Source of the DNA: Burkholderiales bacterium
GTDB taxonomy: Bacteria; Pseudomonadota; Gammaproteobacteria; Burkholderiales; Burkholderiaceae_C
Length of the DNA stretch: 44,574 bases
Reading direction: 5' to 3'
Assembly (NCBI GenBank): GCA_003963075.1
Contig: RXJV01000041.1
Coordinates: 1 to 44,574, forward strand
Below are positions 27,069 through 40,054 of this stretch, piece after piece. Positions within the stretch are counted from its first letter, which is position 1; each line of letters opens with the position of its first letter. A model generated the notes under the pieces. That model did no database searches and was not told where the DNA came from. It saw only the letters and a program-made list of their open reading frames with translations. The position numbers were made by a program, and so were the translations under genes.

Positions 27069-28535
27069 ATGGATGCATTGCTTGCGCTGGACCAGGGGAC
27101 TTCCAGTTCGCGCGCTCTCGTCTTCGACCGAACCGGCCGGCTGCTGGCCTCGGCCCAGCGTGAGCTGACCCAGCACTACCCGCAGCCGGGCTGGGTGGAG
27201 CACGATGCCGGCGAGATCTGGTCCGGCCAGCTGGCCTGCGCACGCGAGGCCCTGGCCGCAGCGGACGCCCAGGTGGTGGCCATCGGCATCACCAACCAGC
27301 GCGAAACCACCGTGCTGTGGGACCGCAAGACCGGCGAACCGCTGCATCGCGCCCTGGTCTGGCAGGACCGCCGCACGGCGGCCTTCTGCGAGACCCTGAA
27401 ACAGCAGGGCGCGGAGCCGCGCGTGCGCGAGCTCACCGGCCTGGTGCTGGACCCGTATTTCTCGGCCACCAAGCTGCGCTGGCTGCTCGACCATGTGCCT
27501 GGCGCCCGCGAGCGCGCCGCGCGCGGCGAGCTGGCCTTTGGCACGGTCGACAGCTGGCTGCTGTGGCAGCTCAGCGGCGGCCGGGTGCATGCGACCGACC
27601 CGAGCAATGCCTCGCGCACCCTGCTGTTCGACATCCATCGCGGCGACTGGAGCGACGAGCTGCTGGGCCTGTTCGACATCCCGCGTTCACTGCTGCCCGA
27701 AGTGAGGCCGTCGGCCGGCCGCTTCGGCCATGCCAGCGAGTTCGGCCTGCCCATCACCGGCATCGCGGGTGACCAGCAGGCAGCGCTGTTCGGCCAGGCG
27801 GCCCTGCACCCCGGCCAGGCCAAGAACACCTATGGCACCGGCTGCTTCCTGCTGATGCACACCGGCACCCAGGCGCGTCATTCCACGCAGGGCCTGGTGA
27901 CGACGCGCGCCGCGCAGGCCGGCGCGGCGGCGCAGTTCGCGCTGGAGGGCAGCGTCTTCGTCGGCGGCGCCGTGGTGCAGTGGCTGCGCGACGGGCTGCG
28001 TGCGATCGGCGGCAGCGGCGAGGTGCAGGCTTTGGCCGAAAGCGTGCCGGATGCCGGCGGCGTGATGTTCGTGCCTGCCTTCGCCGGCCTGGGCGCGCCC
28101 TATTGGCGGCCCGACGCCCGCGGCGCGCTGCTGGGCCTGACCCGCGGCACCACGCAGGCCCACATCGCCCGCGCCGCGCTGGAGAGCATTGCCTTTCAGA
28201 GTGCTGCGGTGTTGGCGGCGATGAATGCCGATGTCGGTGCCCACGAGCGCCTGACCGAACTGCGCGTCGACGGGGGCGCCAGCGCCAACGACCTGCTGAT
28301 GCAGTTCCAGGCCGACCTGCTCGGCATCCCGGTGCTGCGGCCGCGCGTCATCGAGACCACCGCGCTGGGTGCGGCCTTGCTGGCCGGACTCGGTGCCGGC
28401 CTGTATGCGTCGACCGGCGAGATCGGTGCGATCTGGCAGCTGGACCGCGACTTCGTGCCGCGCATGTCGCGCGACGAGGCCGGTGCGCGCCAGGCGCAAT
28501 GGGACCGCGCGGTGCGGCAGGTGCTGGCGGGCTGA
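27069..28535 (+). CDS. glpK: Glycerol kinase GlpK
   Basis: A 488-residue FGGY-family kinase that phosphorylates glycerol to glycerol-3-phosphate, the substrate of the GlpD encoded opposite. It shows [16 protein letters not shown] (residues 4-19), [70 protein letters not shown], the carboxy [13 protein letters not shown], and [19 protein letters not shown]. Length and motif order are complete. Promoter sequence must lie in the 26-bp gap or inside glpD. The gene ends 12 bp before a convergent DUF805 gene. Confidence 0.96.
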
Positions 28536-28547
28536 GCCGGGGAGGGC

Positions 28548-28856
28548 TCAGTCGGGCTGGCGGCTTTCCATCGCCAGCAGCACCACCAGCACGATGAACC
28601 CGACCACCGGGATCAGGCCGACCAGTTGCCACCAGCCGCTCTTGCCGGTGTCGTGCAGGCGTCGCGTGGCGGCGGCGAGCGACGGCAGCAACAGCCCGAG
28701 GAAGACGATGGTGCTGGCGACATAGCCGATCGCGCCGGCGACCAGGCTGGCGAGGATGCTGAAGAGGAAGAACCACCAGTACTCCGAGCGGCTCGCACGC
28801 CCGGAGAAGTCGGCGTATTTGTTGAAGCAGACCCTGATCGATTCCTGAAAGGTCAT
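28548..28856 (-). CDS. DUF805 family small membrane protein
   Basis: A 102-residue inner-membrane protein with the DUF805 signatures: CFNKYADFSGRASRSEYWWFFLF, two central hydrophobic helices, ATRRLHDTGKSGWWQLVGLIP, and a final helix. Function of the family is unknown. A strong ggagagg lies just before the ATG at 28856, unlike many genes here. It is divergent from the VOC gene across a 165-bp gap in which I see no clear site. Confidence 0.9.
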   Translation of the reverse strand: MTFQESIRVCFNKYADFSGRASRSEYWWFFLFSILASLVAGAIGYVASTIVFLGLLLPSLAAATRRLHDTGKSGWWQLVGLIPVVGFIVLVVLLAMESRQPD

Positions 28857-29021
28857 GGCCTCTCCACGGCTGTTGACTCACATGGATGCTAGGGCGCCGC
28901 ATGGGATGGCGCACCCCCAATAACCCGCCTTGGGCTGCCCCTGGGCAAGAGCTCAGCTGCTGACATGCCCTGGCAGGTCGGCCGGTGCAGCATGCAGGCT
29001 TCACCACTCCAGGAGCCCGCC

Positions 29022-29417
29022 ATGAATTTCGCCTACACCATCGTCTACGTGGCCGATGTCGCCGCATCGCTGGCCTTCTTCGACCGGGCCTTCGGCCTGA
29101 AGCCACGCTTCCTGCACGAGAGCGGGGCCTACGGCGAGGTCGAGACCGGCGCAGGCGGCGCGACCCTGGCTTTCGTTGACCATGCCACCGCGCGCGACAG
29201 CGTGCAGCACGACTATGTCGCGGCCGACGCGAGCCCCGTACCGCTGGGCATGGAGATCGGCTTCACGGTCGCCGATGTGGCCGCGGCCTTCGAGCGCGCC
29301 GTGGCCGCAGGCGCGCACCCGCTCGCCGCACCGACCGTCAAGCCCTGGGGCCAGACGGTGGCCTATGTGCGTTGCCCGGACGGGGCTCTGGTCGAACTCT
29401 GCACGTCGATGGGCTGA
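29022..29417 (+). CDS. VOC (glyoxalase/bleomycin resistance-like) protein
   Basis: A 131-residue single vicinal-oxygen-chelate domain with the paired beta-alpha-beta-beta-beta units: MNFAYTIVYVADVAASLAFFDRAFGLKPRFL, then EIGFTVADVAAAFERAVAAGAHPLAAPTVKPWGQTVAYVRCPDGALVELC. Glu in the last strand and Tyr/His at the first strand could hold a metal. Substrate is unknown; dimeric lyase or detoxifying roles are typical. aggag lies 7 nt before the ATG at 29022. Confidence 0.85.
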   Translation: MNFAYTIVYVADVAASLAFFDRAFGLKPRFLHESGAYGEVETGAGGATLAFVDHATARDSVQHDYVAADASPVPLGMEIGFTVADVAAAFERAVAAGAHPLAAPTVKPWGQTVAYVRCPDGALVELCTSMG

Positions 29418-29498
29418 AGCCGCGCCTTCGCGGGGCGGGCGCCGTGGGCGGTGAAGAGCTGGTCGACAGCAAGGGCCTGCGACTCGGGCGCAATGAAT

Positions 29499-29538
29499 AA
29501 GGCGTCCCTGCCGCGATGCCTCGCGGCCTGGACGCCTT
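29499..29538 (-). terminator. Strong hairpin downstream of the lipoprotein genes
   Basis: Arms aaggcgtcc (29499-29507) and ggacgcctt (29530-29538) are perfect complements, and inside them gccgcg and cgcggc pair after a ct/ct mismatch, leaving a 6-nt loop. On the minus strand the stem is followed by a weak T-rich run (TTATTCATT), so it most likely ends transcription of the lipoprotein gene that stops at 29574; it can also stop the convergent VOC gene. Confidence 0.7.
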
Positions 29539-29573
29539 CACTAGAGCTCAGGCGGCAGTGGCGCCGCGCCGGC

Positions 29574-31568
29574 TTACTTCGGCTGCTGGCTGCCGCTGAA
29601 GTACTTGATGGTGTAGGCCTTGAGCGTGCCGTCCGCCTGCGGGATGGCCGAGATGGCCACGCGCGCACCGACGGTCAGGCCCTGGGTCAGGGCTGCGAGG
29701 CCCGCGGTGGAGCTGAGGTCCTGCGGCGTCACCGTCACCTGGTCCTTGCTGCGGTCGACCTGGTAGGCCAGCGTCGCCGAGCCGCTGGTGGTGCTGTAGC
29801 CCACCGTCACCGGCTTGCTGCCCTTGGGCACCGTGATCGTGAAGCTGTTGGTGGCGTTGTTCACGCTCGCCACCGTGGCCAGCGGCAGGTTGGTGGGCGA
29901 GAGCACGACCCAGGGCGCGGACCAGCCGTTCGGTGCCGCCTTGTCGCCCCAGCGCGCATAGCTCGCACCCTGGGCGTAGACCTGGCCTGCGGTGCCGCCG
30001 AAGTCCACGCTGCCATTGGTGGCCGAGACAAAGCTGGTGACGGCGCCAGTCCCGCTGGTCACCAGGCTCGGGAAGCTCCAGTTCCAGTACTTGAAGCCGG
30101 TGATCGCATTGCCGTTGGCGTCGCTGCCATTGGCCGTGGCGGCATCGATATAGCTCAGGTTGACGTTGTAGCCGTCGCCGCCGGTATTGAAGCTGCGGGT
30201 GTAGATGAAGCCGGCAGCGGTGACGCTGGAGATGCGGCCGTCAAAGGCGGCGGTCTCGATGTCGACCGTCTTGGCCACGAGGGTCGGCGCGAGCGGGTCG
30301 ACCGCCTGCACGTGCACCTTGAAGCCGCGCACCAGGTTCTTGGCGGCCGCAAAGGCCGGGCCGCTGCCGATCGCGGTGGTGTCGCTCAGCGCGTTCTCGG
30401 GCGTGCGGAAGAAGAACTGCGTCTTGGCATCGATGACCATCTTCACCGGCTTGCCGTTCTCATCGGCCACCACCATCTCGCTGCCAGCATTGTTGATGCG
30501 CAGCACATGGCCTTCGGGGCTGAGCCAGACGGTGTTGAAGTTCGACGAGATCCACACCCGCGTGGCCACCAGCGTGCCGTTCTGCTGGTAGCGCGTCGCC
30601 ACGCGAACGTATTTGCCGGCCGCAAGCGCCGCGGACACGCTGGCGAAGCTCTTGACGGTGCTTTCCTGCTTGGCATCGATGTCGTAGACGAGCGTGCCAT
30701 TGGTTGCGTCCGCCAGCACATTGACGTTCACGCCGGTGTCCGTGGCCGTCTCGGGTGACACCGCAGGCGTGGTGGGCAGCTGCTTGCTGTAGGTCAGCGT
30801 GCTGCTGTCGCTCGACAGGTTGACGACCTTGCCATAGTGATGGCGCATCACCAGGCGGGTCAGGTCGGACACCTTCTTGTGCTTGACCGGGCCGTTGAAG
30901 TTGACCGCCCAGGTCGCCTGGGTGCTGCCCACCGGCACATGGCCGGTCAGGAAGGCCGGGTGATCGAGGTCGAATTCGACATTGATCGCCGCGCCCGGCG
31001 TGGTGGGCACGACCAGCGGCTTGTCGAACTTGACCGGCACCGTGACGGTCAGCGCGCCGGCTGCACCGGTCGCGCCTTGGATCTGGATGCGGCTGCTCGG
31101 GATCACCGTGCCGGCGGCCTCGGAGAAGCCCGGCTCGGGGTCGGCGGCCACCGTCAGGCTCACGTCGCCGGGGTTGGCCGACAGCGTCAGGCTGACGCCG
31201 GTATAGGTGTCGCCCGCGGTCAGCGTGACCTTGTTGAGCAGCTCGCCGATCTGGTTCAGCTGGGCCAGGTTCAGCGGCAGCGGCGTGCTGCCCAGCGGCA
31301 CGCTGACGCTGCTGCCATCCTGCTTGGTCAGCGACAGAGACAGCAGCTTGACGCCGATGGTGCCCCAGTCTTCGTTGGAGCCGTCGCTGAACAACAGCGG
31401 CACGTCCACGTTGACCGCCTGAGGCGTCGGGTTCGGGGCCGGTGCGGCGCTGCTGCCACCGCCGCCGCCGCAGGCGGCCAGCGCCGCGATCAGGATCAGG
31501 CTCAGGGAGCCGAGGGCAATTTGGCCCGGGCGAAGCGTTGCATCGGATGGGGTGGGGGTGATCTTCAT
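29574..31568 (-). CDS. Lipoprotein with DUF4382-like domain, tandem copy 1
   Basis: A 664-residue lipoprotein. The signal ends in a lipobox (LIAALAAC, Cys near residue 33) followed by a Gly/Ser/Pro linker. Residues 53-200 (VDVPLLFSDGSNEDWGTIGVKLLSLSL through TVPVKFDKPLVVP) have the DUF4382 layout of strands with an early acidic turn. The rest is a series of beta-rich segments (VRVATRYQQNGTLVATRVWISS, GKPVKMVIDAKTQFFFRTPE, GRISSVTAAGFIYTRSF) like DUF5666 or OB-type repeats. Cell-surface or periplasmic location is inferred; function is unknown. gaggac lies 7 nt before the ATG. It is near-identical in layout to the gene at 32083-34071, and both end in FSGSQQPK or YSGSQQPK. Confidence 0.88.
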   Translation of the reverse strand: MKITPTPSDATLRPGQIALGSLSLILIAALAACGGGGGSSAAPAPNPTPQAVNVDVPLLFSDGSNEDWGTIGVKLLSLSLTKQDGSSVSVPLGSTPLPLNLAQLNQIGELLNKVTLTAGDTYTGVSLTLSANPGDVSLTVAADPEPGFSEAAGTVIPSSRIQIQGATGAAGALTVTVPVKFDKPLVVPTTPGAAINVEFDLDHPAFLTGHVPVGSTQATWAVNFNGPVKHKKVSDLTRLVMRHHYGKVVNLSSDSSTLTYSKQLPTTPAVSPETATDTGVNVNVLADATNGTLVYDIDAKQESTVKSFASVSAALAAGKYVRVATRYQQNGTLVATRVWISSNFNTVWLSPEGHVLRINNAGSEMVVADENGKPVKMVIDAKTQFFFRTPENALSDTTAIGSGPAFAAAKNLVRGFKVHVQAVDPLAPTLVAKTVDIETAAFDGRISSVTAAGFIYTRSFNTGGDGYNVNLSYIDAATANGSDANGNAITGFKYWNWSFPSLVTSGTGAVTSFVSATNGSVDFGGTAGQVYAQGASYARWGDKAAPNGWSAPWVVLSPTNLPLATVASVNNATNSFTITVPKGSKPVTVGYSTTSGSATLAYQVDRSKDQVTVTPQDLSSTAGLAALTQGLTVGARVAISAIPQADGTLKAYTIKYFSGSQQPK

Positions 31569-32082
31569 GCGGATGTCCTCGTGGGGCGATGTTGGACGGA
31601 TCGCTGGATGGCGACCCAGCGAGATCGGCCGCCGCGCCCGCCAGGGCTTGTGCAGCGGTCCGCAGGCTAACGGCCCATGCCCACCCGGGATTACCGTTGG
31701 GTGGTAAACCTCTGTTGCCCGTTTGTACGGTGTGACGCAGTCGGCAAACCGGCCCGGTGGACGGGCGCGGGTCAGCCTTTGTCAGATGCCGGTCACATCG
31801 GCAAACGGTCATGCCCCGATGAACTTGGCCACCACGGGCTCCCTCTCGCCCACGGTGGGCCGGGTGAGCCCGAGACTCGCCGCGTGATGCATGTCCCTGG
31901 GGCCCCGCCTTGGCTTCGCGCGGCGGCCCGGCCTCGGCAAGGGGCGCTAGCCCTGGGCGCCGAACCGCTGGTTGGCAGCGAGTGACGGCCTAGGGGCGTT
32001 GATGGCGCCCAGGGTTGCCAAGTCAGGCGCGCCGCGAGGGCCGCGGCACGCCGGGGTGGCGCGGCCTGTGCCGCGCTCGGAC
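31569..32082. other. Intergenic region, duplicated upstream region of lipoprotein copy 1
   Basis: No convincing gene lies here. The part next to the gene repeats features of the region upstream of copy 2: ggcgatgttggacgg at 31594, and an attenuated TTTACC-to-AATCCcGGG stretch. Bases 31944-32022 closely match 34466-34539 in the same relative place (about 380-400 nt upstream of each gene). A small dyad ttacc-gttgggt-ggtaa lies at 31691-31707. The duplication junction must fall between about 32022 and 32083. Confidence 0.6.
31944..32022. repeat. Partial copy of the block at 34466-34539
   Basis: The stretch matches the second block base for base over most of its length with a 4-nt indel near its left end. 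Read on the minus strand it gives LATLGAINAPRPSLAANQ and then a stop after FGAQG, against LASLGTVSAPWPTLAANQ in the other copy; many differences are silent. Confidence 0.6.
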
Positions 32083-34071
32083 TCACTTCGGCTGCTGGCT
32101 GCCGCTGTAGAACTTGAGGGTGTAGGCCTTGAGCGTGCCGTCCGCCTGCGGGATGGCCGAGATGGCCACGCGCGTGCCGACGGTCAGGCCCTGGGTCAGG
32201 GCCGCGAGGCCGGCGGTGGAGCTGAGGTCCTGCGGCGTCACCGTCACCTTGTCCTTGTTGCGGTCGACCTGGTAGGCCAGGGTGGCCGAGCCGCTGGTCG
32301 TGCTGTAGTTCACCTTCACCGGCTTGCTGCCCTTGGGCACCGTGATGGTGAAGCTGTTGGTCGCGTTGTTCACGCTCGCCACCGTGGCCAGCGGCAGGTT
32401 GGTGGGCGAGAGCACGACCCAGGGCACGGACCAGCCGTTCGGGGCCGCCTTGTTGCCGCCCCAGCGCGCATAGCTCGCGCCCTGCGCATAGACCTGGCCT
32501 GCGGTGCCGCCGAAGTCGACCGCGCTGCCATTGGTGGCCTTGATGAAGCTGCTCACCGCATCGGCGCCGCTGGTCACCTGGTTCGGCAGGCCCCAGTTCC
32601 AGTACTTGAAGCCGTTGATCGGGTTGCCATTGGCGTCGGTGCCGTTGGCGGTGGCGGCGTCGATATAGCTCATCGACACGTTGTAGCCGTCACTACCGGT
32701 GTTGAAGCCGCGGGTGTAGATGAAGCCGGCCGGCGTGACGCTGGAGATGCGGCCATCGTAGGCGGCGGTCTCGATGTCGACCGTCTTGGCCACGAGGGTC
32801 GGCGCGAGCGGGTCGACCGCCTGCACGTGCACCTTGAAGCCGCGCACCAGGTTCTTGCCAGCCGCAAAGGCCGGGCCGCTGCCGATCGCGGTGGTGTCGC
32901 TCTGCGCGTTCTCGGGCGTGCGGAAGAAGAACTGCGTCTTGCCATCGATGACCATCTTCACCGGCTTGCCCGCCTCGTCGGACATCACCAATTCGGTGCC
33001 GGCGCTGTTGATGCGCAGCACATGGCCCTCGGGGCTCAGCCAGACGGTGTTGAAGACCGACGCGATCCACACCCGGGTGGCCACCAGCGTGCCGTTCTGC
33101 TGATAGCGCGCCGCCACGCGAACGTATTTGCCCGCTGCGAGGGCGCTGGACACGCTGGCAAAGCTCTTGACCGTGCTCTCGCGCTTGGTGTCGATGTCGT
33201 AGACCAGAGTGCCGTTGGTCGCGTCGGCCAGCACCGTCACGTTCACCCCGGTGTCGGTGGCCGTCTCCGGCGTCACGACGGGCGTGGTCGGCAACTGCTT
33301 GCTGTAGGTCAGCGAGCTGTTGTCGCTCGACAGGCTGACCACCTTGCCATAGTGATGGCGCATGACCAAGCGGGTCAGATCGGTCACCTTCTTGTGCTTG
33401 ACCGGGCCGTTGAAATTGACTGCCCAGGTCGTCTGGCTGCTGCCGACTGGCACATGGCCGGTCAGGAAGGCCGGGTGATCGAGGTCGAACTCGACGTTGA
33501 TCGCCGCGCCCGGCGTGTTGGGCACGACCAGCGGCTTGTCAAACTTGACGGGCACCGTGACGGTCTGGGCGCCCGCGGCGCCGGTGGCGCCCTGAATCTG
33601 GATGCGGCTGCTGGGGATCTGCGTGCCGGCGGTTTCGGCGAAGCCGGGTTCGGGGTCGGCAGCCACCGTCAGGCTGATGTCGCCCGGGTTGGCCGCCAGC
33701 GTCGCGGTGACGCCGGTGAAGGTGTCGCCGGCATTCAGCGTGACCTTGTTGAGCAGTTCGCCGATCTGGTTCAGCTGGGCCAGGTTGAGCGGCAGTGGCG
33801 CGCTGCCCAGCGGCACGTCGACACTGCTGCCGTCCTGCTTGGTGAGCGACAGCTTCAGCAGCTTGACGCCGATGGTGGCCCAGTTTTCGGTGGAGGCATC
33901 GCTGATGAACAGCGGCACGTCCACCTTGCCCTGAGGTTTCTGATTCGGGTTGAGCTGGGCATTGCCGCCGCCGCAGGCGGCCAGGGCGGCGATCAGGGCC
34001 AGGCTGAGGGAACCCAGAGCCAGGGGGCCCGGGCGCAGCGATGCATCGGTGGAGGTGCGGAAGATGTTCAT
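32083..34071 (-). CDS. Lipoprotein with DUF4382-like domain, tandem copy 2
   Basis: A 662-residue paralogue of the gene at 29574-31568, aligning end to end with few changes. Differences concentrate in the linker after the lipobox Cys (GGGNAQLNPNQKPQGKVD here, a Gly/Ser/Ala/Pro run in copy 1), and there is a small indel near TNGSAVDFGGTAGQ and RWGGNKAAPNGW. The lipobox LIAALAAC, the DUF4382-like domain and beta-rich carboxy repeats are all intact. Third-position changes are common while protein sequence is kept, so both copies look under selection. The ATG at 34071 (MNIFRTSTDASLRPG) is chosen by alignment with copy 1; a longer in-frame start at 34188 lacks support. Function unknown. Confidence 0.87.
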   Translation of the reverse strand: MNIFRTSTDASLRPGPLALGSLSLALIAALAACGGGNAQLNPNQKPQGKVDVPLFISDASTENWATIGVKLLKLSLTKQDGSSVDVPLGSAPLPLNLAQLNQIGELLNKVTLNAGDTFTGVTATLAANPGDISLTVAADPEPGFAETAGTQIPSSRIQIQGATGAAGAQTVTVPVKFDKPLVVPNTPGAAINVEFDLDHPAFLTGHVPVGSSQTTWAVNFNGPVKHKKVTDLTRLVMRHHYGKVVSLSSDNSSLTYSKQLPTTPVVTPETATDTGVNVTVLADATNGTLVYDIDTKRESTVKSFASVSSALAAGKYVRVAARYQQNGTLVATRVWIASVFNTVWLSPEGHVLRINSAGTELVMSDEAGKPVKMVIDGKTQFFFRTPENAQSDTTAIGSGPAFAAGKNLVRGFKVHVQAVDPLAPTLVAKTVDIETAAYDGRISSVTPAGFIYTRGFNTGSDGYNVSMSYIDAATANGTDANGNPINGFKYWNWGLPNQVTSGADAVSSFIKATNGSAVDFGGTAGQVYAQGASYARWGGNKAAPNGWSVPWVVLSPTNLPLATVASVNNATNSFTITVPKGSKPVKVNYSTTSGSATLAYQVDRNKDKVTVTPQDLSSTAGLAALTQGLTVGTRVAISAIPQADGTLKAYTLKFYSGSQQPK

Positions 34072-34326
34072 ACGGGAGATCCAGGTGAGGCGATGTTGGA
34101 CGGGCCGCTGCATCGCAACGCGTCCGCTGCATCCGGCAGGGCTGTTGCAGGGGGCGCAGGCGCTAGCCGATGCGAACCCCGGATTCAATCCCGCCGGACG
34201 GTAAAGTTATGTTATCGACGCCGCTACAGTGCGGCGACCGTCAAACCGGCCGATCGGCGGCAGAGACAGGCGGCGGTCAGCCCGGATTCAGAGTCCGCTC
34301 AGATTGGCGGTCAGGCCCGCGACAGG

Positions 34327-34584
34327 TCAGCGTTCGCGACGGTCAAAGGCGATGCCGCCGGCCGACGATTGCCGGCGCCGTGTCGGCGCGTGGCCAGCCG
34401 AGCCCTGCAGGCCCGCGGGTTCCGGCTGCGCCTGCTTGGGGCAGGCCTGCGCGGTCGTGGGGCGCGCGCTCTGGGCGACGAACAGTTGGTTGGCCGCGAG
34501 CGTCGGCCATGGCGCGCTGACGGTGCCCAGGCTGGCGAGGGCCCTGGGCTGGGGGCCGCCGATGTGGGAGGCGTGGAGGGCCAT
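34327..34584 (-). CDS. Possible small protein, 85 codons, unrecognised
   Basis: An ATG at 34584 opens an 85-codon frame (MALHASHIGGPQPRALASLG, middle LAANQLFVAQSARP, and a basic end FDRRER). It would be divergent from the WYL regulator and on the strand of the lipoprotein genes. The only support is its partial copy at 31944-32022, where most differences fall at third codon positions in this frame. Against it are the lack of a ribosome site, low complexity and the early stop in the other copy. I rate it uncertain. Confidence 0.25.
   Translation of the reverse strand: MALHASHIGGPQPRALASLGTVSAPWPTLAANQLFVAQSARPTTAQACPKQAQPEPAGLQGSAGHAPTRRRQSSAGGIAFDRRER
34466..34539. repeat. Conserved upstream block of lipoprotein copy 2
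   Basis: Paired with 31944-32022. Its distance from the copy 2 start (about 395 nt) matches the distance of the other block from the copy 1 start (about 376 nt), which shows that the duplicated unit includes the upstream region. Confidence 0.6.
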
Positions 34585-34640
34585 GGTGGGTGCGGCGTGT
34601 TGGTCGGGTCTCCGGGCCAAGTGCAAGACCCGTGCCCAGT

Positions 34641-34655
34641 CCCGCACAATGCGGG
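34641..34655. promoter_or_regulatory. Inverted repeat and cACAAT element before the WYL regulator
   Basis: CCCGCA-caa-TGCGGG is a perfect 6-bp inverted repeat 4 nt before the ATG at 34660. It contains cACAAT (34645-34650), a -10-like hexamer 9 nt before the start. An autoregulatory operator overlapping the promoter is one reading. Confidence 0.4.
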
Positions 34656-34659
34656 CTCC

Positions 34660-35355
34660 ATGCGCCGTGCCGACCGCCTCTTTCAGATCGTCCAGCTCAT
34701 CCGTGGCCGCCGCCTGACGACGGCGGACTACCTCGCCCAGCGGCTCGAGGTGTCGATGCGCACCGTCTACCGTGACATCGCCGCGCTGGCCCAGCAGGGC
34801 GTGCCCATCGAGGGCGAGGCCGGCGTGGGCTACCGGATGCGGGCCGGCTTCGACCTGCCGCCGCTGATGTTCAGCAAGCAGGAGGCCCAGGCCCTGGTTG
34901 CCGCGGTGCGGCTGGCCGAGTCGCGGCTGGATGCGGCGCTGGCCCGCGAGGCCGAGAACGCGCTGTCCAAGATCCTGGCCGTGCTGCCGCTGGATGCCCG
35001 CGCCGCGGCCGAAAGCCTGGCGCTGTATGCACCGCTGCCGGCGCTGGACCCGGCCACCAGCGCCCACCTGACCGCGCTGCGCGAGGCCACCGAGGCGCGG
35101 CGCAAGCTGCGCATGGGCTATCTCGACCTGGGCGGCGCGCGCAGCGAGCGCGTCGTACGGCCGCTGGCCTGCATGTTCTGGGGCCCGGTCTGGACGCTGG
35201 CCGCCTGGTGCGAGCTGCGCGAGGACTTCCGCAGCTTCCGTGTCGACCGGATCGAGACGCTGGAGCTGCTGGAGGCCAAGTTCCGCGACGAGCCGGGCAA
35301 GACGCTGGCGGACATGAACCGCCGCCACGAGTCCCAGGCCGGCTCAACCGCCTGA
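34660..35355 (+). CDS. YafY-like HTH-WYL transcriptional regulator
   Basis: A 231-residue cytoplasmic regulator. The amino-terminal HTH is of the DeoR/HTH_11 kind (RADRLFQIVQLIRGRRLTTADYLAQRLEVSMRTVYRDIAALAQQGVPIEGEAGVGYRM). After a helical linker (MFSKQEAQALVAAVRLAES) comes the WYL ligand-sensing domain (RRKLRMGYLDLGGARSERVVRPLACMFWGPVWTLAAWCELREDFRSFRVDRIETLEL). The WYL tripeptide itself reads WTL here. Such proteins sense small molecules or nucleic-acid ligands and regulate neighbours; the lipoprotein genes and the gene at 35369 are candidates. It converges with the latter, 13 bp apart. Confidence 0.88.
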   Translation: MRRADRLFQIVQLIRGRRLTTADYLAQRLEVSMRTVYRDIAALAQQGVPIEGEAGVGYRMRAGFDLPPLMFSKQEAQALVAAVRLAESRLDAALAREAENALSKILAVLPLDARAAAESLALYAPLPALDPATSAHLTALREATEARRKLRMGYLDLGGARSERVVRPLACMFWGPVWTLAAWCELREDFRSFRVDRIETLELLEAKFRDEPGKTLADMNRRHESQAGSTA

Positions 35356-35368
35356 GCCGGCCGCGCCG

Positions 35369-36067
35369 TCAGGGCGCGCGTTTCAGCAGCTGCCAGGGCT
35401 GGGCCCAGTCGGGTTCGCGGTAGCCGGGGGCCGAGGCCCAGGTCGTGCGGTAGACGGCCCAGCCGTCCGGGCGCGGCACGAACAGCCAGAAGCGGTCCTC
35501 GCCGGCCACCTCAAGCACCGAGCCGCCGGCGGGCAGCTCCGACAGGTCCAGCTTCAGCGTCGCCGGGCGCGGCCGCCCGGCAATGACCACCCGGTTGGGC
35601 TCGAAGCACCAGCGCTCGCCGCCGCGCGAGGCGCGGTAGCAGCCCGAGAACAACAGCGCGAAGTAGGGCGCGTCGGCGGCACCGGCCAGGCCGGCGATCC
35701 GCAGCAGCGGGCCGGCCTTGCTCAAATCGTCCGGCTGCAGCCGCACCTGGTCGCCATCGAACCGCAGGCAGCCATGCGGGATCTCGCGGCCCAGCACCGC
35801 AGACTCATGCCAGTTCCAGGCGATGCCGACGCTGCCGTCGGCACCCACGCGCAGCTCGGTGGCGCCGTTTGGCAGGCCTTGCTGGCCCAGGTCCCAACGG
35901 CGTGTCTGGCGCACCCGCTCGATCAGCGGCGCGGTCACGTAGACGCCGGCGCGGGCGGCCAGCCGTGCGGGCTGGTCGCTGCACAGGGTGTCGGCCGGCG
36001 CCGCGCAGGCCATCTCGGACAGGGACAGGGTCAGGGAAAGCGCGGCGGCGAAGAATGAAGTTCGCAT
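35369..36067 (-). CDS. Exported protein of unknown function
   Basis: A 232-residue protein with a signal peptide (MRTSFFAAALSLTLSLSEMA, cleavage after CAA or thereabouts near residue 23). The mature part has four or five Cys (including TLCSDQP, HGCLRF, SGCYRA and RWCFEP), so disulfides are likely in the periplasm. It is beta-rich with many Trp and Arg. I recognise no family. A cACAAT hexamer (36077-36082, minus strand) ends 9 nt before the ATG, matching the pattern before rlmJ. It lies downstream of the sulfate-binding protein gene but beyond a strong terminator, so it is a separate unit. Confidence 0.75.
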   Translation of the reverse strand: MRTSFFAAALSLTLSLSEMACAAPADTLCSDQPARLAARAGVYVTAPLIERVRQTRRWDLGQQGLPNGATELRVGADGSVGIAWNWHESAVLGREIPHGCLRFDGDQVRLQPDDLSKAGPLLRIAGLAGAADAPYFALLFSGCYRASRGGERWCFEPNRVVIAGRPRPATLKLDLSELPAGGSVLEVAGEDRFWLFVPRPDGWAVYRTTWASAPGYREPDWAQPWQLLKRAP

Positions 36068-37301: not shown

Positions 37302-37799
37302 TTGCCGCGCTACACCCTGAACGTCAACCAGAAGCGCCACAGTGTCGAGGTCGCGGCGGACACGCCGCTGCTGTGGGTGCTGCGCGACCAGCTCGGCCTG
37401 GTCGGCGCCAAGTACGGCTGCGGCGTCGGCCAGTGCGGCGCCTGCACCGTGCAGCTCAACGGCGCGCCCACCCGCAGCTGCCTGCTGCCCGTCTCGGGTG
37501 TCGGTTCGGCCCAGGTGCTCACCATCGAGGGCCTGCACCCCCAAGGCCGCCACCCGCTGCAGCAGGCCTGGGAGGAGCTGGACGTGCCGCAGTGCGGCTA
37601 CTGCCAGGCCGGCCAGATCCTCAGCGCCGCCGCCCTGCTGAAGCAAAGGCCCAAGCCGACGGATGCCGACATCGACGCCGCCCTGAGCGGCCACCTGTGC
37701 CGTTGCGCGACCTACACACGCATCCGCGCCGGCGTGCACCGCGCGGCCGAGATCGCCGCGCAGCCGGTCAGCGGTCCGAAGAAGGCGGTGAAGGCATGA
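37302..37799 (+). CDS. iorA: [2Fe-2S] subunit of an aldehyde/isoquinoline-type molybdenum hydroxylase
   Basis: A 165-residue small subunit of the xanthine-oxidase family. Cys40, Cys45, Cys48 and Cys60 ([17 protein letters not shown] onwards) hold the plant-ferredoxin-type cluster; Cys98, Cys101 (CGYCQAG), Cys132 and Cys134 (LCRC) hold the second, Mo-proximal cluster. It passes electrons from the molybdenum subunit encoded by the next gene. The start is taken as TTG 37302, preceded by cgagg, because the family begins within a few residues of YTLNVN; no ATG is available. It overlaps the large subunit by ATGA. The symbol reflects family resemblance to isoquinoline 1-oxidoreductase; the real substrate is unknown. 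Confidence 0.87.
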
Positions 37800-40054
37800 G
37801 CGCCCGGCCGGACATCGTGGAAGCCTCGCGCCGGCGCTTCCTGCAAGGCGCCACCCTGGCCAGCGGCGGCCTGCTGCTGGGCGTGCTGCTGCCCCGCGTG
37901 GCCGGCGGCGCCGAGGCCGTGGGCCGGCCGGCCAGCACGGAGGAGGCCAGCTTCAAGCCCAATGCCTTCATCCGCATCGACAGCAGCGGGCGTGTCACGC
38001 TGATCTCCAAGCAGCCCGAGATCGGCCAGGGCATCAAGACCTCTCTGCCCATGGTGCTGGCCGAGGAACTGGCGGTGCGCTGGCAGGACGTGCGGGTGCA
38101 GCAGGGCGACCTGGACCCGGCCTATGGCAACCAGAGCGCCGGTGGCTCCACCTCCACGCCCAACAACTACACCGATTTCCAGCGGCTCGGCGCCACCGCC
38201 CGGCTGCTGCTGATCCGCGCCGCGGCCGCGCAGTGGCAATTGCCCGAGGCCGAGCTGGAGGCCGCCGACAGCGCGGTGCACCACCGCCGCACCCGCCGCC
38301 GCCTGGGCTATGGCGCCCTCGTCGCTGCGGCGGCGCGGCTGCCGCTGCCCGCGCCCGAGGAGGTCAAGCTCAAGGACCCCAAGGACTACACCCTGCTCGG
38401 CACGCGCATCGGCGGCGTAGACAACCACGCCGTCGTCACCGGCCAGCCGCTGTTCGGCATCGATGTGAAGCTGCCCGGTCAGCGCGTGGCCGTGTTCGAG
38501 AAATGCCCGGTGTTCGGCGGCCGCGTGAAGGCAGCCAACCTTGACGCGATCAAGGCCCTGCCCGGCGTGGTGGACGCCTTCGTCATCGACGGCACGGCCG
38601 ACCTGCGCGGCCTGATGCCCGGTGTGGCCATCGTGGCCGAGCACACCTGGGCCGCCTTCAGTGCCCGTAAGCAGTTGCGCGTGGACTGGGACGAGGGCCC
38701 CCACGCCCAGGACAGCTGGCGCGGCTTTGTCACCCAGGCCGACCGGCTCGGGCCGCAGCCCGGCGCCGCCGTGGTGCGGCGCGATGGCGACGTGGCCACC
38801 GCGCTGGCCGGCGCGGCCCACACCGTGACGGCTCGCTATGCCTACCCCTTCATCAGCCATGCCAGCATCGAGCCGCAGAACTGCACCGCCTGGTGGCGCG
38901 ACGGCAAGCTGGAACTCTGGGCGCCGACGCAAAACCCCGCGGCGGGCCAGAACCTGGTCAGCAGCACCCTGGGCATTCCCAAGGACCGCATCACCCTGCA
39001 CATCACCCGCAGCGGCGGCGGTTTCGGCCGGCGGCTGAGCGCGGACTTCATCGTCGAGGCTGCGGCCATCGCCCAGCGCGTGGCCGCGCCGGTGCAACTG
39101 CTGTGGTCGCGCGAGGACGACCTGCGGCACGACCACTACCGCGCCGGCGGCTTCCACTTCCTGCGCGGCGGCGTTGATGCGCAGGGTCGCGTCGTCGCCT
39201 GGCACAACCACTTCGTCACCTTTGCCAACCGTGTGCAGCGCGACGGTGCCTCGGTGCTGCAGCCCGGCAGCGGCGGCGCGCTCAGCGGCGACGAGTTCCC
39301 GGGCCGCTGGGTGCCGAACTACCTGCTGGAGCAGACGCCGATCGAATGCGGCATCCCGATGGGCCCCTGGCGCGCCCCCGGCAGCAATGTCTTCGCCTGG
39401 GTCTTCCACAGCTTCATCGACGAGCTCGCCCACGCCGCCGGCCGCGACCCGCTGCAGTTCCGCCTCGACCTGCTCGGCGAGCAGGAGCTCAAGCCCGGCA
39501 CCGGCGAGCGTGGCCAGCCCTACCACGTGGGCCGGATGAAGCGCGTGCTGCGCGAGGCCGCCGCCCGCGCCGGCTGGAGCCAGCCCCTGCCCGGCGCCGG
39601 CAAGGGGCGGGGCCGCGGCATCGCCTTCCACTTCAGCCACCGCGGCTACATCGCCCAGGTCGCCGAGGTGACCGTGTCAAAGGACGGCGAGCTGCGCGTG
39701 GACCGCGTCACCGTGGTCAGCGACATCGGCGGCCAGATCGTCAACCTCAGCGGCGCCGAGAACCAGGTGCAGGGCTCGGTCATTGACGGCCTGGGCACGC
39801 TGATGCACGCGGCCCTGGACATCGAGGGGGGCCGCATCGTGCAGAGCAACTTCGGCGACTACCCGCTGATCCGTCTGCAGGACGCCCCGCCGCGCATCGA
39901 TGTGCACTTCCTGAAGACCGACTTCCCGGTCACCGGCCTGGGCGAACCCGCCTTCCCGCCGCTGGCGCCCGCGGTGTGCAACGCCATCTTCGCGGCCACC
40001 GGCAAGCGGGTGCGCGAGCTGCCGCTGACCCGCACCGACCTGCGCTGGGGCTGA
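37796..40054 (+). CDS. iorB: Molybdopterin-binding subunit, isoquinoline 1-oxidoreductase beta type
   Basis: A 752-residue catalytic subunit of a periplasmic-facing molybdenum hydroxylase. A Tat signal is present (SRRRFLQGATLASGGLLLG, residues 11-29), so the folded complex with its small subunit is probably exported. The body has the fused layout of IorB proteins: KPNAFIRIDSSGRVTLISKQPEIGQG, the MPT-contact segments, SGGGFGRRLSADF, GPWRAPGSNVFAW, and the carboxy-terminal GLGEPAFPPLAPAVCNAIFAATGKR with the active-site Glu. Oxidation of N-heterocycles or aldehydes is the family role; substrate is unknown. It is coupled to the small subunit by a 4-bp overlap. No cytochrome electron acceptor or XdhC-like maturation gene is next to it. 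Confidence 0.88.
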   Translation: MSARPDIVEASRRRFLQGATLASGGLLLGVLLPRVAGGAEAVGRPASTEEASFKPNAFIRIDSSGRVTLISKQPEIGQGIKTSLPMVLAEELAVRWQDVRVQQGDLDPAYGNQSAGGSTSTPNNYTDFQRLGATARLLLIRAAAAQWQLPEAELEAADSAVHHRRTRRRLGYGALVAAAARLPLPAPEEVKLKDPKDYTLLGTRIGGVDNHAVVTGQPLFGIDVKLPGQRVAVFEKCPVFGGRVKAANLDAIKALPGVVDAFVIDGTADLRGLMPGVAIVAEHTWAAFSARKQLRVDWDEGPHAQDSWRGFVTQADRLGPQPGAAVVRRDGDVATALAGAAHTVTARYAYPFISHASIEPQNCTAWWRDGKLELWAPTQNPAAGQNLVSSTLGIPKDRITLHITRSGGGFGRRLSADFIVEAAAIAQRVAAPVQLLWSREDDLRHDHYRAGGFHFLRGGVDAQGRVVAWHNHFVTFANRVQRDGASVLQPGSGGALSGDEFPGRWVPNYLLEQTPIECGIPMGPWRAPGSNVFAWVFHSFIDELAHAAGRDPLQFRLDLLGEQELKPGTGERGQPYHVGRMKRVLREAAARAGWSQPLPGAGKGRGRGIAFHFSHRGYIAQVAEVTVSKDGELRVDRVTVVSDIGGQIVNLSGAENQVQGSVIDGLGTLMHAALDIEGGRIVQSNFGDYPLIRLQDAPPRIDVHFLKTDFPVTGLGEPAFPPLAPAVCNAIFAATGKRVRELPLTRTDLRWG

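Follow-up and report, generated by a model that had tools for sequence, protein, structure and literature searches.

How two closely similar lipoprotein genes came to lie side by side, how much DNA was duplicated with them and whether both copies are maintained are the questions raised by this locus. It was analysed within the whole available stretch of 44,574 nucleotides from a Burkholderiales bacterium (contig RXJV01000041.1), referred to here as the window, and in comparison with other genomes of the genus and the family. The explanation favoured here, which is given a probability of roughly 80 %, is the gain of a lipoprotein gene at a small gene, followed by a local head-to-tail duplication of the resulting unit and the retention of both copies. 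The features involved are listed in Table 1, where the lipoprotein genes are designated A and B and the copies of the small gene E1 to E3.

Table 1. Features of the lipoprotein locus and its borders, with positions in the window
Feature	Position	Strand	Basis and remarks
VOC/glyoxalase-family gene, left border	28965..29417	plus	Pfam Glyoxalase
E3, 3' portion of the small gene, lying at the VOC stop	29411..29482	minus	profile i-E 0.022 (weak)
Copy A, 664-codon lipoprotein gene	29574..31568	minus	ORF and translation; Pfam DUF5666
Upstream block of A	31571..32069	minus	fills nearly all of the B-A intergenic stretch; local alignment compared with shuffles
E2, degenerate copy of the small gene between B and A	31923..32048	minus	profile i-E 5.4e-8; no start, in-frame TAG
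Copy B, 662-codon lipoprotein gene	32083..34071	minus	start is an internal ATG of a longer ORF
Upstream block of B	34075..34600	minus	homologous to the block of A; local alignment compared with shuffles
E1, open small ORF of 85 codons, divergent from WYL	34327..34584	minus	profile i-E 1e-9 over 34584-34453
WYL/HTH transcription regulator gene, right border	34660..35355	plus	Pfam WYL and HTH_11

Extent of the repeated unit

Genes A and B are adjacent, lie on the same strand and are homologous over their full length, with both reading frames open. An end-to-end alignment of 660 codons gives 88.6 % identity for the coding DNA; the differences number 50, 52 and 123 at the first, second and third codon positions, and the proteins are 87 % identical. 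The first-pass annotation had described two genes of 664 and 662 codons in the same orientation that align from end to end, together with a matching block of 380-400 nt upstream of each start, and both observations were borne out. For the upstream regions, a local alignment of 545 columns with 62 % identity reached a score of 115, compared with a mean of 18.9 for 300 shuffles (sd 3.0, max 33.5; z 32), which places the similarity well beyond chance. Without the best-conserved core, the score was 71, with shuffles reaching at most 21.5. The match is longer than originally described and spans offsets 13-512 of the 514 nt separating the stop of B from the start of A. The quoted figure perhaps refers to the best-conserved stretch, which is found 382 nt ahead of the start in A and 397 nt ahead of it in B.

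No similarity was found in the first 60 nt 3' of the two stops (z -0.1). Since the upstream regions are homologous and these first downstream positions are dissimilar, the repeated unit consists of the 5' region and the gene, measures about 2.5 kb, in agreement with the unit size proposed earlier, and is arranged head to tail. The longer repeat pairs of the window are spaced 2503-2515 nt apart. The unit had also been said to carry its own regulatory region. The 5' region is indeed included, but its regulatory nature was not substantiated: a simple consensus scan of 29400-34700 yielded no sigma-70-like promoter (shuffle mean 0.2), and part of the region is a copy of a small gene. The duplicated unit is thus composed of small gene, 5' region and lipoprotein gene. 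A consensus scan for terminators in the same interval found none (shuffle mean 2.7), and none of the four Rfam matches on 28500-36000 (E up to 1) reached the gathering score.

The small gene between the VOC and WYL genes

The WYL regulator gene is present in all 20 genus genomes, including that of the window, and a VOC gene adjoins it in 16 of the 19 other loci. Between the VOC match and the WYL match lie 63 to 579 nt in all but one of these 16 loci, the exception being G019 with 1103 nt. No lipoprotein match was found around the WYL gene in any of the 19 loci (E up to 1e-5; about 3.0-3.7 kb each). A motif search in 60 relatives pointed to the same junction in the genus genomes G003 and G009; in the latter (L076), no VOC match lies beside the WYL gene.

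In 12 of the 18 other genus loci counted, a small ORF of 66-71 codons lies divergent from the WYL gene (L071, L074-L076, L078, L079, L081, L083-L087); six loci have none by the criterion used, and G010 was left out of the count. The order WYL, small gene, VOC occurs in 11 of the 18 loci examined. The consensus of the small ORF reads MAIYASFQARGTRGAELATLGAISAPL-SLA-DQLF, and identity to the reference row falls to 44 % for G015 and 35 % for G019. In its own frame pN/pS is 0.27 (28 pairs from 8 of the 12 genomes), whereas four other frames give 1.6-2.0 and one stop-rich antisense frame gives 0.42. By this pattern, the small ORF evolves like a gene. Pfam contains no match to it at E up to 1, and a profile including E1 matched 5 of 200 family genomes (E up to 0.01), two of them in the genus and three outside (E 2.2e-5, 0.005 and 0.007).

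Three copies of this small gene are located in the window, which gives the order WYL - E1 - B - E2 - A - E3 - VOC. The i-E values in Table 1 were obtained with a profile from 12 other genus genomes that was built without the window, and its best chance-like matches were 0.31 in the Roseateles koreensis locus (L057) and 0.42 in the reversed window. With E1 included in the profile, the values were 4.4e-10 for E2 and 0.0066 for E3. The C-terminal residues of E3 agree with the ORFs of the other genomes, and E3 is joined to the end of the VOC gene as it is there. In both lipoprotein copies the core begins 107 nt past the stop, from B to E2 and from A to E3. As the DNA 3' of the stops (E3 compared with E2) scores 22.0 and thus not above the best shuffle of 23.5 (z 4.1), the identification of E3 owes as much to its location and reading frame as to its score.

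Over 97 core columns, E1 and E2 share 66, E1 and E3 share 58, and E2 and E3 share 57. With the copy in G003, E1 shares 71, E2 64 and E3 69, and E2 and E3 are therefore each nearer to that copy than to one another. Given these mixed similarities, the order of events set out below is one that we infer. A widespread dispersed DNA repeat was also considered for the core motif and rejected, since the window's own genome contains five matches with up to 3 mismatches, three of them in the window, and the reversed pattern yields one. The two matches outside the window lie on C118, at the start of what we take to be an rRNA-methyltransferase-like frame, and on C135 (3 mismatches). Because the copies in the window served to define the motif patterns, the chance figures obtained with them are not independent, unlike those of the small-gene profile.

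Several further observations concern the surroundings of the site. By eye, the gap before the WYL gene contains other DNA in L074, L076, L077, L080 and L085; with such DNA on the WYL side in several genomes, this spot may take up insertions often. About 165 intergenic columns are common to the gap before WYL in G003 (L071) and to a locus on G000:C118 (L031), at about 1917-2081 of the locus, with 74 % identity and a score of 79 compared with a maximum of 18 in 30 shuffles. Located at different places in two genus genomes, this sequence looks like a dispersed repeat. Two long ORFs at 35369-36067 and 37712-39640 (minus strand) have no Pfam match (E up to 0.001), and Pfam revealed no recombinase or transposase in eight neighbouring window genes, two of which have no match at all.

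According to the favoured explanation, a DUF4382/DUF5666-type lipoprotein gene would have entered the lineage, presumably by horizontal gain, and landed in or at the small gene between VOC and WYL, leaving small-gene sequence on both sides. The unit of about 2.5 kb, comprising small gene, 5' region and lipoprotein gene, would then have given rise to a head-to-tail duplicate, with unequal crossing-over between the flanking direct repeats as the probable mechanism. Purifying selection would have kept both copies; B changed at about twice the rate of A in protein, and some patches appear to have been homogenised by gene conversion.

Distribution and origin of the lipoprotein gene

The window's own genome contains three full copies of the lipoprotein gene, namely A, B and a third paralogue C (G000:C55:9978-11939) with about 74 % identity; a further match of 47 residues (E 0.008) can be disregarded. 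C sits between a CNNM/CorC-type gene and ligA. This pairing is checkable in 5 of the 19 other genus loci, in which corC falls inside the fetched ligA flank, and in G006 the corC-ligA spacing of about half a kilobase is too short for such a lipoprotein gene. The first-pass annotation had recommended looking for the single-copy state in relatives. Within the genus, none of the 19 other genomes yielded a copy at E up to 1e-20, and the lipoprotein gene is accessory there. Among 399 family genomes, an even draw from a larger group, it occurs in four including the window's own; the other three are single-copy, at sites that need not correspond to the VOC-WYL site.

One scan of GTDB contigs gave 31 loci with relatives of the lipoprotein, which by title are mostly proteobacterial, with some acidobacterial, holophagal and myxococcal MAGs and R. 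koreensis. A second copy was found in none of the 31 fetched stretches, 19 of which extend at least 2.6 kb on both sides; the other 12 say little in this respect. No relative was found in one scan of viral contigs (viral_contigs) or in 72,556 plasmid records. GC3 gives no sign of a foreign origin, as the values of A (0.92) and B (0.93) are not outside those of seven other genes of the window, which range over 0.74-0.94; the total GC of 0.67 is just slightly low compared with 0.71 for the window. The homologue in R. koreensis hw8 (L057) shows 65 % identity over query residues 14-664, and differs from the window's genes in being a single copy in the fetched 18 kb, which contain no VOC, WYL, corC or ligA match (E up to 1e-10).

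A tree of 31 rows was built from A, B, C, 26 of the 31 GTDB-contig loci and two family genomes, with 13 of its 28 inner branches left open. In this tree A and B are mutual closest relatives (100/99), joined by C (100/100) and then by R. koreensis (100/100). The patchy distribution and the grouping of A, B and C would fit a gain followed by two duplications in the lineage.

The tree also bears on the alternative that survives best, in which A and B were inserted separately by incoming DNA carrying the small gene, in a Campbell-like manner and with no local duplication. Such insertions would explain why each lipoprotein gene has small-gene sequence to its left and right and why the core follows the stop at 107 nt in both copies, and a dS of 0.28 would permit two sources. 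However, A and B are sisters (100/99), and the upstream stretches of C and R. koreensis, the two compared outside A and B, are unlike the block (z -1.0 to 3.6, below the shuffle maxima). For these reasons, separate insertions are considered unlikely.

Still less probable is an ancestral lipoprotein gene at the VOC-WYL site that disappeared from the genus's other sequenced species, the tandem being old. In its favour are the appreciable silent divergence of A and B (dS 0.28) and a GC3 that fits that of the neighbours. Loss in the other genus genomes is formally conceivable, but it would be required in 19 of 19 cases and fits poorly with four carriers among 399 family genomes. Moreover, an open small ORF occupies the site in 12 of 18 other genus loci, and 0 of 19 loci have a lipoprotein match at E up to 1e-5. 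A gain at the small gene with subsequent local duplication is therefore preferred to both alternatives.

Divergence of the copies and the predicted protein

The dN/dS ratio had been named at the outset as a check, with a value near 1 in one copy as the adverse outcome. The A-B comparison gave 0.271 (NG86; dS 0.281, dN 0.076), which points to purifying selection, and both copies look functional. An assembly artefact or a decaying pseudogene pair, which could be suspected in a draft of 173 contigs, is hardly credible with 11 % of coding positions differing in the 50/52/123 codon-position pattern, a dN/dS of 0.27 and both frames open.

The protein of B has evolved about twice as fast as that of A. 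With C as the outgroup, 38 amino-acid changes are unique to B and 19 to A, with 28 assigned to neither (chi-square 6.33), and with R. koreensis as the outgroup the numbers are 33, 14 and 36. The corresponding silent changes, with C as the outgroup, are 37 in B, 33 in A and 8 in neither. Along the genes, the longest run of identity between A and B covers 15 of 166 silent-variable codons (p 0.0023), and none of 10,000 shuffles attained the dispersion statistic of the silent differences. The conversion test on all polymorphic sites is borderline for A-B (p 0.056); the non-tandem pairs gave p 0.037 (B-C) and p 0.79 (A-C). Because the silent differences are clustered, gene conversion has probably homogenised some patches of A and B, although it is not proven. 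The upstream DNA, with 62 % identity, is more diverged than the silent sites (about 76 %).

The view that the copies differ mainly in the linker after the lipid-bearing Cys has to be revised. This region is the densest in change, since the copies differ at 18 of 55 aligned positions within the first 60 columns and at 71 of 605 beyond, yet it holds a minority of the differences, 71 of 89 being located outside it. Retention of the lipobox in both copies is supported by the translations, which show LAAC at Cys33 after an N-terminal hydrophobic stretch, a motif that we take to be a putative lipobox.

DUF5666 (PF18914) matches A with 31.4 and B with 31.2 bits, both above the Pfam gathering cut-off of 27. 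DUF4382 (PF14321) matches B with 19.3 bits, under its cut-off of 25, and has no match in A at E up to 1. Of the aligned family members, 29 of 31 match DUF4382 and 29 of 31 match DUF5666 (E up to 0.01). By its domains and motif, the protein would be classified as a predicted lipoprotein of the DUF4382/DUF5666 type: it is like this group in that both models match nearly all aligned family members and A and B have the putative lipobox, and it deviates in that A lacks a DUF4382 match and B remains below the cut-off. For comparison, a table in PMC8241124 lists a Haloferax DUF4382 protein as a glycoprotein with a lipobox, and a DUF5666 protein is named in a table row of PMC10714799.

The structural model of A (mean pLDDT 72.2, pTM 0.66; residues 1-50 below pLDDT 50) consists largely of beta structure. 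None of the best 50 of 864 PDB matches (E up to 10) is a full-length structural neighbour, and a search of the PDB by sequence with the family profile gave no match at E up to 1. Partial fold matches among the same best 50 of 864 include CusF (E 0.049, TMt 0.57, 80-residue target) as well as S1 and single-strand-binding domains, all of which are taken as OB-like small domains. DDB1/cullin complexes were discarded as fold relatives, since none of their 13 matches with E up to 0.001 exceeds a TM-score of 0.10, which leaves them without credibility. The model tentatively suggests a chain of beta modules that is anchored in the membrane and lies in the envelope, possibly at the surface, and probably a binding or structural protein.

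Head-to-tail copies, a common 5' region, a dN/dS well below 1 and patchy silent identity are all features of ordinary tandem gene duplication. The locus differs in that the flanking repeat is a small coding gene, which is found at the junction in 12 of 18 lipoprotein-free genus loci. This difference is not one of kind, and no new class of system is represented. A more far-reaching reading would regard the small gene as a preferred entry point, its copies as recombination repeats and the lipoprotein unit as an array that can expand and contract, with copy numbers varying between strains; this is considered doubtful.

New findings are the accessory status of the lipoprotein gene, the three small-gene copies in the window, the third paralogue C, the faster evolution of B and the patchy silent differences. 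The locus provides a clean example of an accessory lipoprotein gene that appears to have been gained and multiplied, in which the gene-free site, the repeats and the diverging copies are all readable. It also reveals that a WYL regulator has a conserved small gene next to it that matches no Pfam family.
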